Source of the DNA: Candidatus Saganbacteria bacterium
Lineage (GTDB): Bacteria > Margulisbacteria > WOR-1 > O2-12-FULL-45-9 > XYB2-FULL-48-7
Assembly: GCA_020051815.1 (NCBI GenBank)
Contig: JAGVQF010000076.1
Span: 1 to 12,151 of the forward strand
DNA: 12,151 bases
Direction: 5' to 3'
Part shown: piece by piece, positions 6,017-11,567 of the stretch
How positions within the stretch are numbered: position 1 is the stretch's first letter
How the letters are laid out: each line of letters starts with the position of its first letter
Notes under the pieces: generated by a model
Databases searched by the model: none
The model's input: the letters and a program-made list of their open reading frames with translations, nothing else
What the model was told of the DNA's origin: nothing
Program-made: the position numbers and the translations under genes

Positions 6017-6670
6017 TTAAAAATAAATCGTTCCGCCGAACTGGCTGAAGCTGATCGCGGCGTCCATCCAGGCGTTTGAGCCGCTGCTGCTCAAATATTT
6101 TATCCCGGTCAAAGCCATCGATAGCCCATACTGGTAATAGAGCCCGACGCCGATGTTGTCGGTGACGCGGGTATAGGTCTTGAGCCCAAGCATGAAACCC
6201 GGGATGCCGCCGGCAAAATTGCCGGCCGGGGCGGGCGTGCCGGCCACGCCGGCTATCTCCTGCTGGGCGGCGAACCAGCCGAGGTTGTAGTCGACGAACG
6301 CGGAGACGGAGTTTCCCCCGCCCAGATTAAAATCAACAATGCCGCCCAAAGAGGTCTGGAAAAGCTGGAAGTCGTGCCAGCTGCTTCTTAGGGGGCTATA
6401 GTTGAAGATAAAGTGGGGACCCGCTTTGATCCCGGACGACACCGGATAAAAGAGCGAGGCCTCGCCGCCAAACCCGATCTTTGTCTCCGAGTTCACTGTT
6501 CCCAGGTAGATCGAATCCAGGCCGTCCTTCAGCGCAACATTGGTCGCGTTGACGAGCAGGTTGATGTTGAGGTTGCCGCCCAGCCAGGCAATATCGGTCG
6601 CCCCCGATCCCCCGGCCGAAAGTGTGATGACCGCTAAAAGCAAGATCGCAACTATATATTTTTTCATCAT
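6017..6670 (-). CDS. Small outer-membrane beta-barrel-type protein
   Basis: A 217-aa protein with a clear signal peptide: lysines at the N-terminus, the hydrophobic run YIVAILLLAVITL, then a small-residue region ending around GSGA. The mature part is rich in Gly and aromatic residues in alternating patterns (GFGGEASLFYP, KAGPHFIFNY, SAFVDYNLGWF, GVGLYYQYGLSM) and ends GGTIYF; a C-terminal Phe is the usual recognition signal of outer-membrane barrels. A barrel of about eight strands is likely, but no family can be named. AGGAGG at 6675-6680 lies 4 nt before the first ATG and 7 nt before the second (6667); the second spacing is better, so translation probably starts at 6667. The gene converges on the tRNA with only 16 bp between them. 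Confidence 0.82.
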   Translation of the reverse strand: MMKKYIVAILLLAVITLSAGGSGATDIAWLGGNLNINLLVNATNVALKDGLDSIYLGTVNSETKIGFGGEASLFYPVSSGIKAGPHFIFNYSPLRSSWHDFQLFQTSLGGIVDFNLGGGNSVSAFVDYNLGWFAAQQEIAGVAGTPAPAGNFAGGIPGFMLGLKTYTRVTDNIGVGLYYQYGLSMALTGIKYLSSSGSNAWMDAAISFSQFGGTIYF

Positions 6671-7292: not shown

Positions 7293-7388
7293 ATGCAGAA
7301 TTTTTTATTGTTTAAGCCGGGCTGGTTGATCCTGCACGCGGTCGCGATCGCTTTTATTTTCTGGCTGGGCCACGCGATCAAGTTTTAG
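7293..7388 (+). CDS. 31-aa single-helix membrane protein related to the last helix of its neighbour
   Basis: A very short frame starting ATG at 7293 with a good ribosome-binding site (AGGAG at 7279-7283, 9 nt spacing). It encodes MQNFLLFKPGWLILHAV and continues as a single membrane span, ending HAIKF. The core GWLILHAVAIAFIFWLGH aligns without gaps to GWVLVHLAALSAVYALGK of the upstream 169-aa protein: the Gly-Trp, His, Ala and Leu-Gly positions are identical. It starts 12 nt after that gene's stop. Its end overlaps the stop of the convergent 809-aa gene by 4 nt. It may be a small subunit, or the decayed end of a duplicated copy; the intact start and ribosome site favour a real gene. Confidence 0.55.
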   Translation: MQNFLLFKPGWLILHAVAIAFIFWLGHAIKF

Positions 7389-9814
7389 CCGCCTGACGCA
7401 GCTCCGGATTTTTGCTTGATCTCTTTGATGATATCAAAAGTCCTCGGATCAGTTGAGGATTTATCGGGAATGCCTTCAATCGTTTTTTCGACTTCCTCGA
7501 AAGTGATCGCTTTGTCAGATTCGGAAAGGCCATATTCCCGGCCCCGGAAAGGGGCAATATATTTAACAAATAGATACTTGGCCGCCAGTTCAAAGTTCCC
7601 CGTCCTCATTAATTCCCTGATCCGACTGCGAAGTGCCTGGCCGAAAGAGACATAATTTTCAAAAACAGTGGCAAAATCTTCTTTCCTATTGCTCAATCCG
7701 TAATCGCGGGCAAAATCTTTTTTGTCAAAATCGCTCCGATCGTTTTTATTAATGTCGAATTCCCCTCCCCAAACCTCTCGCTTAATTCTTTCCGGTGTCC
7801 AGCTGATCTTGTAGTACAGGAGCGACGGATCGCCGGTTGTCTCTTGCTTGCCCGAAGAGAAACCGACGGAAAGATTCAAGTCCCAGTGATGGCCGAATTC
7901 GTGGGCGATAGTGCTTAACGAACAGCCGCTGCTGGTGTTGATGAGAACCTTGTTCGGCGGATAAGATCCAGCAAATTCGCTTACCCCTGCCTCGCGGAAA
8001 ATAACTTGTAATTTCTGGGAAGGATCAAAGGAGTTGAAAAACTCATCGGGCAATGCCTCCGATGCCCGGATTAGTTCCGGTGCAAAACCAATAGTTTTCT
8101 GTGGATTTTCAAAAACCGCGATGAAATTTCTCCGGTTGAAATATTCAATAATCGCCTTATCGGCTTCAAGCCGGATTGAGCCGGGAATAATTATCGGCTG
8201 GTGATCGTCGTTTTTTCTGGCGACTAAACTTATGCCGTCCATCTCGATGATTCTTGCAAGGCCGGCTCCTGTTCGGAACCGGGGTTGAAAAGATTCGGAG
8301 GCGGCAAGATTTTTTAGAAGCATCAATCTTGTGTCATTTGTTGCCAGCGGCGCAATGTAATCGCGAATTATTTTCTGCGCATATGTTATGCTGTCCTGAT
8401 AATATTTCGGGTCAAAATTTTGGTAATCTTGAGCTTCGAAGAGAATAAAGCTTAGCAAACCAAGATAGTAAACTTCCTTTAAGTGCCCGTTTGGCGAACC
8501 AGCGACCAATTCCGCCGCTTTTTTGTACTCTCCAAAGTATTCCCCCCCGGGGGTTATTTCTTTAGCCTGGTAGAGGATATCGGATAATTCAATTTTCTCG
8601 TTATTATTAAGGTCCTGGCTGATAAAGGGAATGGCCTTGAATAAATAAGAAATATATTTGAGCGCGTCTTCATTATTATACTTCGACAGCATTTTAGATA
8701 TAAATTTGCCGAGGTAATAGGAATCTTCGGGTAGTCCGGATAGGAAATCCCAGATGATTTTTGTTTCCAGTTTGTATGAGTTTAATAAGTAGAGGACAAT
8801 TTCTGGATAATCAGATAGCAGCTTGAGGTTCCCTTTTCTGGTCAGATCGGTTACCAGTTTTAACGCTCGATCTTTATTAGGATCATTGGCTATCAGGGAC
8901 GAGTAAATTCCGGGCAGTATATTTGGCATTTGTTCGGTTGCGTTCGCATACTCCAATATATCATTCTTCGACACTCCCGCGACCAGCAATTCTCTTATGG
9001 CGGTTAAGAGTTTTTCCTGCTCATCCTTTGAAAAATAATCATCGCCGGTGTTATTATCAATAAAGGAAAATATCTTTCGCCGTAAGCTTAAAACTTCGTC
9101 GTTGTCAAAGCCGGATGATTTTAACGCGTCGACCAGTTCTTTGCCCGGCCTATGGGGGTAAAATTTGACGGCAAGCCCATTGCTGTAAAAGTGCTCCCTT
9201 CTTAGAGGGCCGATTTTAGCGGCCTCTTCAAAAATATTCTTCAGGCGGGCGATAATTTCGTTTTTATCAAAGCCCGACCCCCAAAGCGTCTCGATGTAGT
9301 TATCCAATCCTTCGCGGGCCTCGGGGAATGTGCCCAGGTAAGAAAGGATGGTCATGATTTCGTTATCGTTTGCGCCGATTCTCAACAATGATGGAGTCCG
9401 GTCGTCGTACGGCATCAATCCCAAAATACGGGATTCTTCAACTCCCAGCTGGAGGGCAGCCTGCGCAAATTCGATTAGCGGGACAACTTGATTGACACAG
9501 GTCCCCGTGCAACCGAAGGTGTTTGTGATATCGTCGCGTCTTGTTTCAGGAAGACTAATCAGGTATTTTGAAAATATTTGATACGCCTTTTTATCGGCTT
9601 CAATCTCATAATTTCGGAAAATTCCATTTTTCGTTTCCTGATTGGCCGCCGCCATGTATTCCCAGATCTCGACGGAAGAATTGTTATCCTGATCATATTC
9701 CTGAATGTCGTCAGCTGATTCCTGGCTGGAAATATGCCCGTCAAGCGAGGTGTCAAGTTTTAGAAATGCTTGCTTAAGCGAATTGAAATCGGTTATGTTT
9801 GAAATGCCTTCCAT
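7385..9814 (-). CDS. Large protein with zinc-metalloprotease motif and EF-hand-like calcium loops
   Basis: An 809-aa protein with no family I can name. AGGAG lies 7-8 nt before the ATG at 9814. The N-terminus has two canonical calcium-loop patterns, D21-E32 (DTSLDGHISSQE) and D41-E52 (DQDNNSSVEIWE), only 20 residues apart. Further loops occur at D253-D264 (DNNTGDDYFSKD), D401-D412 (DLNNNEKIELSD) and D687-K698 (DINKNDRSDFDK). The middle, about residues 80-550, is helical without a recognised domain. Near the C-terminus AHEFGHHWD (H638, E639, H642) is a zincin HExxH motif. E712 or E719 in EDFATVFENYV is a plausible third zinc ligand. No signal peptide or membrane helix is seen. The gene is AT-richer than its neighbours and begins within a serine-dehydratase remnant, suggesting acquisition. 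Function: probable Ca-dependent zinc peptidase, an inference. Confidence 0.85.
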   Translation of the reverse strand: MEGISNITDFNSLKQAFLKLDTSLDGHISSQESADDIQEYDQDNNSSVEIWEYMAAANQETKNGIFRNYEIEADKKAYQIFSKYLISLPETRRDDITNTFGCTGTCVNQVVPLIEFAQAALQLGVEESRILGLMPYDDRTPSLLRIGANDNEIMTILSYLGTFPEAREGLDNYIETLWGSGFDKNEIIARLKNIFEEAAKIGPLRREHFYSNGLAVKFYPHRPGKELVDALKSSGFDNDEVLSLRRKIFSFIDNNTGDDYFSKDEQEKLLTAIRELLVAGVSKNDILEYANATEQMPNILPGIYSSLIANDPNKDRALKLVTDLTRKGNLKLLSDYPEIVLYLLNSYKLETKIIWDFLSGLPEDSYYLGKFISKMLSKYNNEDALKYISYLFKAIPFISQDLNNNEKIELSDILYQAKEITPGGEYFGEYKKAAELVAGSPNGHLKEVYYLGLLSFILFEAQDYQNFDPKYYQDSITYAQKIIRDYIAPLATNDTRLMLLKNLAASESFQPRFRTGAGLARIIEMDGISLVARKNDDHQPIIIPGSIRLEADKAIIEYFNRRNFIAVFENPQKTIGFAPELIRASEALPDEFFNSFDPSQKLQVIFREAGVSEFAGSYPPNKVLINTSSGCSLSTIAHEFGHHWDLNLSVGFSSGKQETTGDPSLLYYKISWTPERIKREVWGGEFDINKNDRSDFDKKDFARDYGLSNRKEDFATVFENYVSFGQALRSRIRELMRTGNFELAAKYLFVKYIAPFRGREYGLSESDKAITFEEVEKTIEGIPDKSSTDPRTFDIIKEIKQKSGAASGG

Positions 9815-9968
9815 GAATTAGCTCCTCTGTTCTTATCTCTGCCGGAATTGGCAAAAATTTCAATATATAAGCCGCTTGACCTGGGCTATATACCCCGATC
9901 GTGTGCGAGCTTGAAGGGCCGGGGCCGATCTTGAATAAATTAAAGACCGAAGTTTTGATGATATTCAT
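9774..9968 (-). pseudogene. L-serine dehydratase, N-terminal remnant
   Basis: The frame from ATG 9968 encodes SVFNLFKIGPGPSSSHTIG, which matches the N-terminus of iron-sulfur L-serine ammonia-lyases (compare SLFDMFKVGIGPSSSHTVG in the SdaA type). The SSSHT motif is intact. A three-residue insertion (VYS) seems to interrupt the next conserved part before PGQAAYILKF. Homology then fades at about residue 45, and the frame ends at 9774, 41 nt inside the metalloprotease gene. The intact enzyme is over 400 aa and degrades serine to pyruvate and ammonia; the catalytic Cys cluster is missing here. No other part of the gene is in the window. It lies 32 nt downstream of the glcD-like gene, probably its former operon partner. 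Confidence 0.8.
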
Positions 9969-10284
9969 CAAACCTATTTCGGCGGGGAGAGGTGAGAATT
10001 TCAGGCTGGCAGAATGTTGTTCCGGCCGAGGACGAAAGACGGATCGAAAACCTTCTTCACTTTCATCATTTCCTCAATGCCCGCCAGTCCGTACATCTCT
10101 CTTAAATAATCGTGCTTGATCTTGCCGATGCCGTGCTCGGCGGAAACGGTGCCGCCAAAGGAAACGGCTTTGCGAACGAATTTTAAGATCAATTCTTTGG
10201 CCAGCGGCAGGTCTTGTTCTTTCTTGGCGATCAAATTAACGTGTAAATGGTTGTCACCGATGTGGCCGAATTTGATATAGAAAA

Positions 10285-10315
10285 GTCGCGAGTCGCGAGT
10301 CGCGAGTTCCGAGTC
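10285..10315. repeat. 7-bp tandem repeat (GTCGCGA) inside the glcD-like gene
   Basis: Three perfect copies of GTCGCGA, a fourth variant GTTCCGA and a partial unit GTC. On the coding strand they encode the segment DSELATRDSR just before the conserved FGHIGDNHLHVN, so they add a loop without breaking the frame. Confidence 0.85.
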
Positions 10316-10583
10316 ATAATAGTTAAACATTTCTTTGAATTTATCATTCGGTACGGCGATGTCGGTCGCCAGTTTTACCTGATGATATTGCTTGAACATC
10401 TCGTTGATGTGTTCGGGGATGGCGTGGCGGAATTTTAATAATTCGCTCCGTTGCTTCTCGTCGGCCGAGAGCCAGCAGTCATCAAGCGAGGCTCCGTACT
10501 TTTCCAAAAGCCCCGCCCAGTAATCGATATAGTCCTTGTCGTTCTCGGCCACGATCTCCTGTTCGATATAGATCGCGGCTTTT

Positions 10584-10618
10584 GAGAGAGTAGGGATTAG
10601 GGGGTAGGATCTAGATAG
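10584..10618. repeat. Degenerate 7-bp repeat (TAGGGNN) inside the glcD-like gene
   Basis: GAGAGAG, TAGGGAT, TAGGGGG, TAGGATC and TAGATAG follow each other in 7-bp register. They encode roughly LSRSYPLIPTLSK on the coding strand. The periodicity is weaker than in the other two tracts. Confidence 0.55.
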
Positions 10619-10880
10619 CATACGCAAGGTGTTTTCGTCGAAAAATTCGTAAAAATTGACTGCCCTGTCTTCCGCCTGTTTGCTTTCCAGAACAAAATCG
10701 ACCGCCTTTTCTTCGGTCGGAAAGAAGGCGACAAGATCAAACGTTTCTTTCATGGCGGGGATGAGCGCGACCTCGATCTCTGTGACGATGCCAAGGGTGC
10801 CTTCGGACCCAATGAAAAGATCGATCAGGTCCATGCCGGGTTTGCTGAAATAACCGGCGGAATTCTTTGTTTGAGGCATT

Positions 10881-10929
10881 GTGTAATGGGGTATGGGGTA
10901 GGAGGTATGGGGTATGGGGGAGGGGTTAC
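10881..10929. repeat. 7-bp repeat (GGGGTAT)x7, G-quadruplex candidate, inside the glcD-like gene
   Basis: Seven consecutive heptamers: GTGTAAT, GGGGTAT, GGGGTAG, GAGGTAT, GGGGTAT, GGGGGAG and GGGTTAC. On the coding strand this gives the Pro/Tyr/His segment NPSPIPHTSYPIPHYT, placed where relatives have a short loop before GYF. Five G-runs of four or more (10888-10925) with short loops could form a quadruplex on the template strand. Confidence 0.85.
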
Positions 10930-11421
10930 GCTGCAAGTCGAGTGTTGAACCATCCGGCAAAGCGACTTTCAGGCGTTTGATCCAATTGCGTGTGGAGCCG
11001 AAGCGGAAACTGCGGCCGCCGGAAGCATTGGTCGCGACATTACCGCCCAAGGTTGCCGATTTTTCCGTCGGGTCCGGCGGATAGAGGAGGCCGGCCTTCC
11101 CGACGGCTTTTCCAGCTCGTCGAGAGTCACACCCGGCTGGACAACGGCAAACTTCTGCTCTTTATCGATATTAATGACCTTGTTAAGCTTTTGTGTTGTT
11201 AATATCCAGCCGCCGAAAGGGATACAGCCGCCGGTTGTCCCGGTCTGCCCGGCGGAGACGGTTAAGGGGGTCTTCTTCGCCACACATTCAGCCAAAGCTT
11301 CATTGATCTCATCTTCATTTTCCGGCACATAAATGCCGTCGGCATGGCCGCCGGCCAGGTTGGAGCTGTCTTCGAGGTAGCCGGCGATGATGTCGGGGTC
11401 GGTTTTCTTGATCATTACGTG

Positions 11422-11451
11422 AGTATAACAGATTAAAAAAGCACTTGACAA
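11422..11451 (-). promoter_or_regulatory. Promoter for the glcD-like gene, predicting a leaderless mRNA
   Basis: On the minus strand TTGTCA (11451-11446) and TATACT (11427-11422) are 18 nt apart. Only CACGTA separates the -10 from the ATG at 11415, so transcription would begin at or next to the start codon. No Shine-Dalgarno precedes the ATG. Confidence 0.55.
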
Positions 11452-11474
11452 ACTTGGGCCGTCTCCTTTATAAT
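11445..11474 (+). promoter_or_regulatory. Consensus-hexamer promoter upstream of the 23S leader
   Basis: TTGACA (11445-11450) and TATAAT (11469-11474) with an 18-nt spacer. The predicted start is near 11481. Its -35 shares five bases with the -35 of the divergent promoter. Confidence 0.72.
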
Positions 11475-11480
11475 AGTAAC

Positions 11481-11567
11481 ACTTGATGCCGAAAGTTATC
11501 ACTTTTAAATAACATCGAGTTTACATCAATCACGCGAATTTAAAAACGCACTTGATGTGCGTTTTTT
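11481..11567 (+). ncRNA. Putative structured leader or short RNA ending at a terminator
   Basis: The predicted transcript from 11481 to the terminator would be about 87 nt. TTGATG (11483-11488) can pair with CATCAA (11524-11529), enclosing a second stem GTTAT/ATAAC (11495-11499 with 11509-11513). The nonamer CACTTGATG recurs at 11480-11488 and 11549-11557; the second copy forms part of the terminator hairpin, so CATCAA could pair with either. This is attenuator-like, but it could also be an independent small RNA. Confidence 0.4.
11542..11567 (+). terminator. Intrinsic terminator between promoter and 23S rRNA
   Basis: A perfect 10-bp stem, AAAAACGCAC/GTGCGTTTTT, around loop TTGAT, followed by T residues to 11567. 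The A-run on the other side makes it potentially bidirectional. It lies upstream of boxA, so transcripts from 11481 would meet it first. Confidence 0.75.

Follow-up and report, generated by a model that had tools for sequence, protein, structure and literature searches.

The window considered here is the whole of a 12,151-nucleotide stretch of Candidatus Saganbacteria DNA (contig JAGVQF010000076.1). It encodes an 809-residue protein in which a zinc-protease motif occurs together with sequences resembling calcium-binding loops, and the question that this locus raises is whether the two belong to a single calcium-responsive enzyme. The initial annotation suggested that the protein could be a calcium-gated peptidase of an undescribed family with five scattered EF-hand-like loops. 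The open reading frame at 7385..9814 is indeed present and lies on the minus strand, where it is read from an ATG at 9814 down to 7385; frame 1 of the plus strand is full of stops. The HExxH motif and the loops at residues 21 and 41 also stand, whereas the loops at 253, 401, and 687 are not confirmed, and from the interpretation we retain a peptidase lacking a curated profile, with relatives in its own phylum where they are named to phylum and with two real loops rather than five. What the sequence supports is a zinc endopeptidase of M34-like type, built on a helical scaffold and headed by an EF-hand pair. To the whole reading, namely a signal-less M34-type zinc endopeptidase that is positioned by its scaffold and controlled by its EF-hand pair, we assign a probability of about 0.7.

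The proposed active site resides in the C-terminal domain, for which an alignment of 14 rows, including the window protein, was made. The motif AHEFGHHWD (H638-E639-H642) is found on a modeled helix, residues 633-649, and its conservation is above chance, as every aligned member keeps HExxH. Direct inspection of the alignment reveals H638, E639, H642, H643, W672, D700, F701, E712, D713, A715, and Y721 to be invariant. The segment EDFATVFENYV is present downstream, as annotated, and begins at E712. Either E712 or E719 had been put forward as the third zinc ligand; the first is retained in 14/14 rows and the second is Glu in 10/14, and E712 is consequently the candidate. The column of Y705 contains Tyr in 13 rows and Gln in P0004, and in every row it is placed seven residues before E712. 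The distance from the catalytic base to this tyrosine is 66 residues in the window protein and 58-68 across the alignment, in comparison to 36 in the Pro-Pro endopeptidase PPEP-3 as numbered in PMC12828418, which implies an insert. Within the conserved DRxDFDxxDF of this region, D700 and F701 are joined by F696 (13/14) and by R693 and D697 (12/14 each). In such a site, H638, H642, and E712 would hold the zinc, E639 would activate water, and Y705 would stabilize the oxyanion. The missing tyrosine of P0004 is what might suggest a catalytically dead scaffold that keeps only the zinc fold, but the invariance of E639 and of the three proposed ligands makes this very improbable.

The C-terminal model (m78834c07d6ff, residues 476-809) has a predicted local distance difference test score (pLDDT) of 81 and a predicted template modeling score of 0.79, although in the full-length model the pLDDT falls below 50 at residues 653-661 and 684-706. 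VIA-align of the C-terminal model suggests a resemblance to the M34 fold, with 14-17% identity to the Pro-Pro endopeptidases (PPEPs). The hallmarks of M34, an HExxH on the active-site helix and a Glu third ligand with a Tyr at position -7, are present at the level of sequence and model. For none of eight domain sequences is a curated M34 profile among the matches listed at expectation values (E) up to 10, and the domain is therefore called M34-like rather than filed as a member of M34. It is well supported that the protein is a peptidase and that its family lacks a curated profile.

At the opposite end of the protein, the loops at 21 and 41 form an adjacent pair. The model contains helices at residues 10-20, 34-40, and 50-61, with a short strand or bridge at 28-29 and 47-48 and a pLDDT of 78-89, such that model and alignment both show a pair of helix-loop-helix units, each with an acidic loop of 12 residues. 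In P0002 and P0003 both loops have aligned counterparts, in which Asp, Ser, or Asn occupies positions 1, 3, and 5 and position 12 is Glu; P0004 keeps loop 21 only. For P0003, a close homologue, a PF13405 match is precomputed. A loose loop pattern, which was relaxed with knowledge of the loops, matches four times (21, 41, 253, and 401), whereas 2000 shuffled sequences gave 0.27 matches on average and never as many as four. The strict PROSITE EF-hand pattern matches none of the five loops; the mismatches are at positions 4 and 13 in loop 1 and at position 6 in loop 2. The window protein scores 12.1 bits against the Pfam EF-hand cut-off of 25.4, and the generic profiles PF13499 and PF00036 have no match in the host genome, so the pair rests on the model and the homologues. 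It would bind calcium and thereby set when or where the enzyme acts.

The loops at 253 and 401 are not conserved in the three closest homologues, P0002-P0004. The loop at 687, which had been placed between HExxH and the third ligand, fits none of the patterns tried, and residues 687-691 align in these homologues to GKVPM, GKVNV, and EKVAP, which are mostly non-acidic. It is thus highly improbable that five scattered loops, one of them within the active-site region, gate the enzyme directly, even though four fit the loose pattern and the 687 region leads into the conserved acidic DRxDFDxxDF.

Two results weigh against an M34-type enzyme under calcium control. First, the top rows of a Foldseek search with the domain are M1 peptidases, at E 0.013 upward, and the M34 families are missing from them. 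Weak matches were also found to Peptidase_M90 (2/8 members, best E 0.097), Peptidase_Mx1 (1/8, E 0.019), and TIGR04549 (3/8, best E 0.0019), all of them below cut-off where a score is given; for TIGR04549, a zinc metallohydrolase lipoprotein family, the window domain scores 12.7 bits against an NCBIfam cut-off of 75. The domain could accordingly be another gluzincin, either M1/thermolysin-like, M90 MtfA-like, or of the TIGR04549 lipoprotein type, with the M34 likeness reflecting a common zincin core, and this we regard as unlikely. Second, the loose pattern finds a loop within the first 60 residues in 7 of the 13 members that have an N-terminus, counting the window protein and leaving out the fragment P0013, and none there in the remaining six. 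Of these, P0007 has a single loop at 436 and P0014 two, at 246 and 782, and P0006, P0009, P0011, and P0012 have none anywhere. This speaks against a universal calcium requirement, and calcium gating of the enzyme is graded as possible. A member from genome G048 (L023), outside the 13, has two loops near its start.

The enzyme is probably intracellular. By hydropathy, the signal peptide reported absent by the annotation is indeed lacking, with a maximum 12-residue value of 0.43 in the first 60 residues, and 13 relatives give values of at most 1.16, the highest being that of the fragment P0013. The measure was controlled with one protein, the product of the neighboring 6017-6670 (value 3.33), and not with a dedicated predictor.

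The EF-type head is not restricted to this protease. A head profile built from eight sequences, three of which are proteases of this family, was compared with 74 genomes of the phylum and matched 20 places in 17 of them at E up to 0.01. Sixteen of these matches, including six profile seeds, lie within approximately 52 codons of an upstream in-frame stop, three are internal, and L056 is unplaced. The generic PF00036 gave 24 matches in 13 of the 31 genomes of the class, and 15 frames were examined. Eleven of them exceed 250 codons; the loop lies within 45 codons of the frame start in six, is internal in four (one presumably a cysteine desulfurase), and one is cut by a contig end. The other four are short multi-EF-hand proteins.

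The bodies behind the head are diverse. In a scan of ten EF-headed proteins, three exceed the HEAT_2 cut-off, and a CheR methyltransferase domain (E 8.9e-14) is also present in one of these three; two match MORN_2 below its cut-off, and L048 matched no family. L080 (107-2665, plus strand) unites an EF-type head with HEAT repeats and a CheR domain in a single protein. L077 (379-2412, minus strand) and L079 (457-3519, minus strand) end in C-terminal domains without a family, in which HRGH/GSC is kept in L077 and both relatives compared, and GHG/SC is kept in L079 and three of five compared loci (the tblastn-alignable ones). From their sequences these are possible peptidases of another clan, perhaps clan-CD-like. 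Directly 3' of the EF-headed protease P0008, L064 (6041-8440, plus strand) encodes an EF-headed protein of 800 residues, whose C-terminus appears barrel-like by eye and in which a signal peptide is not evident.

That the head occurs on bodies unrelated to one another favors a general module, and its presence on non-peptidase bodies means that it may serve for addressing or docking. A less probable but plausible alternative to the calcium gate is that the pair is a dockerin-like address, through which varied proteins reach a common place, partner, or export route. The many matches near frame starts, the range of bodies, and the tandem arrangement at L064 speak for it, whereas the generic PF00036 search is less one-sided, the weakest head-profile matches (E 0.003-0.01) could represent ordinary EF-hands, and there is no known partner. 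It is doubtful, though conceivable, that the head is a standard, interchangeable calcium input in Saganbacteria and their kin, placed on M34-like zincins, on two kinds of His/Cys domain, and on other bodies, often via helical repeats, in a lineage-wide system of calcium-triggered intracellular proteolysis or effectors.

Between head and protease domain, the helical scaffold of the annotation is also helical in the model, which is mostly of low confidence there. It varies among members ahead of the conserved, roughly 300-residue C-terminal domain, being unassigned helical, TPR, or HEAT, and P0003 (522 residues in total) has a far shorter middle between its EF head and protease domain. This variable region would place the enzyme on a substrate or partner. 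A single-sequence search of the PDB with the protein gave nothing useful, one profile (A3) matched TPR designs through the scaffold, another (A6) gave repeat designs and weak, chance-like matches, and the full-length Foldseek and VIA lists hold mostly helical repeat proteins. A UBA_3 match at residues 167-192 (E 0.0011, below cut-off) was set aside; UBA_3 is not among the families listed (25 of 56) for homologues.

A homologue search using words from the first 500 residues, with the best 8000 candidates scored, returned the query itself only. The C-terminal region yielded 11 relatives besides the query, and P0013 and P0014 came from a profile search. Among these 13, those named to phylum (P0004, P0005, P0008, and P0014) all belong to the Margulisbacteria/Saganbacteria, where the annotation had suggested looking, as do all four genomic loci. 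These loci, two from one bin, were found among genome contigs with profile A3; the whole protein had no match there. Among viral contigs, 52 stretches fit the pattern and none is a relative. The domain profile matches 8 of the 74 phylum genomes, strongly (E < 1e-80) in G000, G061, G044, G048, and G072, which all fall within the 31 genomes of the host's class, distantly in G014 (E 9.5e-9), and weakly in G012 and G045 (E 0.003-0.006), which are not counted. The G014 protein (L071, frame from 1126, plus strand), outside the alignment, has a lipoprotein-like start, HEVGHH, and YGMTNCSEDFA, with a Tyr seven before the Glu, and is possibly a secreted branch of the family. A literature search pairing Saganbacteria with EF-hand found no paper.

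Coordinates of the features of the protease gene within the window
Feature	Position	Strand	Basis
Coding sequence, 809 residues (EF-hand pair, helical scaffold, zincin domain)	7385..9814	minus	open reading frame; homologues
Ribosome-binding site GAGGAG, 7 nucleotides 5' of the ATG	9822..9827	minus	sequence
EF-hand pair, residues 10-61	9632..9787	minus	model; alignment to P0002, P0003, and further heads
Putative calcium loop 1, residues 21-32, DTSLDGHISSQE	9719..9754	minus	loose pattern; alignment
Putative calcium loop 2, residues 41-52, DQDNNSSVEIWE	9659..9694	minus	loose pattern; alignment
Helical scaffold, residues 62-510	8285..9631	minus	helical in model, block pLDDT 35-87, mostly low confidence
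C-terminal zincin domain, residues 511-806	7397..8284	minus	aligned in 14/14 members; model; VIA-align
HEFGH, residues 638-642 (proposed ligands H638, H642; base E639)	7889..7903	minus	invariant in 14/14
Insert region, residues 653-706, with conserved DRxDFDxxDF (692-701)	7697..7858	minus	alignment; partly weak model
Proposed oxyanion tyrosine Y705, at position -7 from E712	7700..7702	minus	alignment; PPEP-3 Tyr190/Glu197
E712, proposed third zinc ligand	7679..7681	minus	invariant in 14/14

The host bin (G000) comprises 1.1 megabases in 215 contigs, is 70% complete, and holds one copy of the protease gene. Directly before this gene, 9885-9968 (minus strand) holds the beginning of a gene for serine dehydratase beta, which matches PF03315 over positions 1-22 of 155 (E 1e-7) and whose frame ends after 64 codons; G057, of the same genus, has a nearly full PF03315 match, and the incomplete host bin has no other. 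The protease gene may have displaced this gene. At 10001-11502 (minus strand), a GlcD-like FAD-linked oxidase gene runs over two overlapping frames that divide FAD_binding_4 between them, a split that is a frameshift or sequence error; its counterpart in G061 is one 520-codon frame with 72% identity. The frames flanking the protease at L062-L065 and L005, read over their first 60 residues, show no shared neighbor.

Calcium-controlled intracellular proteases are familiar in eukaryotes as the calpains. Their bacterial homologues, according to the abstract of PMC4631099, have no calcium-binding sites. A bacterial protease with real EF-hand input would be unusual. The M34-like fold, which the sources consulted describe in secreted enzymes and toxins, would also be extended to proteins of an uncultured phylum that have no signal peptide.

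The catalytic domain of anthrax lethal factor belongs to M34. Lethal factor is part of an exported toxin, whereas the window protein is signal-less and has a different N-terminal half. PPEP-1, PPEP-2, and PPEP-3 are likewise MEROPS M34 enzymes; their solved chains span approximately 190-215 residues, to which the window protein adds the EF head and helical scaffold. The PPEP-3 site, according to PMC12828418, consists of His153, His157, the base Glu154, the third ligand Glu197, and the oxyanion Tyr190, although the PDB titles seen number two of these residues one lower. Tyr190 and Glu197 are seven residues apart, as are Y705 and E712. PMC12828418 also describes the PPEPs as secreted, in contrast to the window protein, which has no signal peptide by hydropathy. 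As in EF-hand proteins (PF00036, PF13499), two 12-residue loops are found in a modeled helix-loop-helix pair, but in the window protein, which is below the Pfam cut-off, the loops start just 20 residues apart; the EF-headed L077 exceeds that cut-off, with 28.0 against 25.4 bits. Dockerin type I (PF00404) has a sub-threshold match in the EF-headed L024, at 21.1 against 22.9 bits. The window head, which differs from dockerin in being N-terminal and without a signal peptide, has in common with it the paired short calcium loops and the occurrence of such a module on varied proteins.
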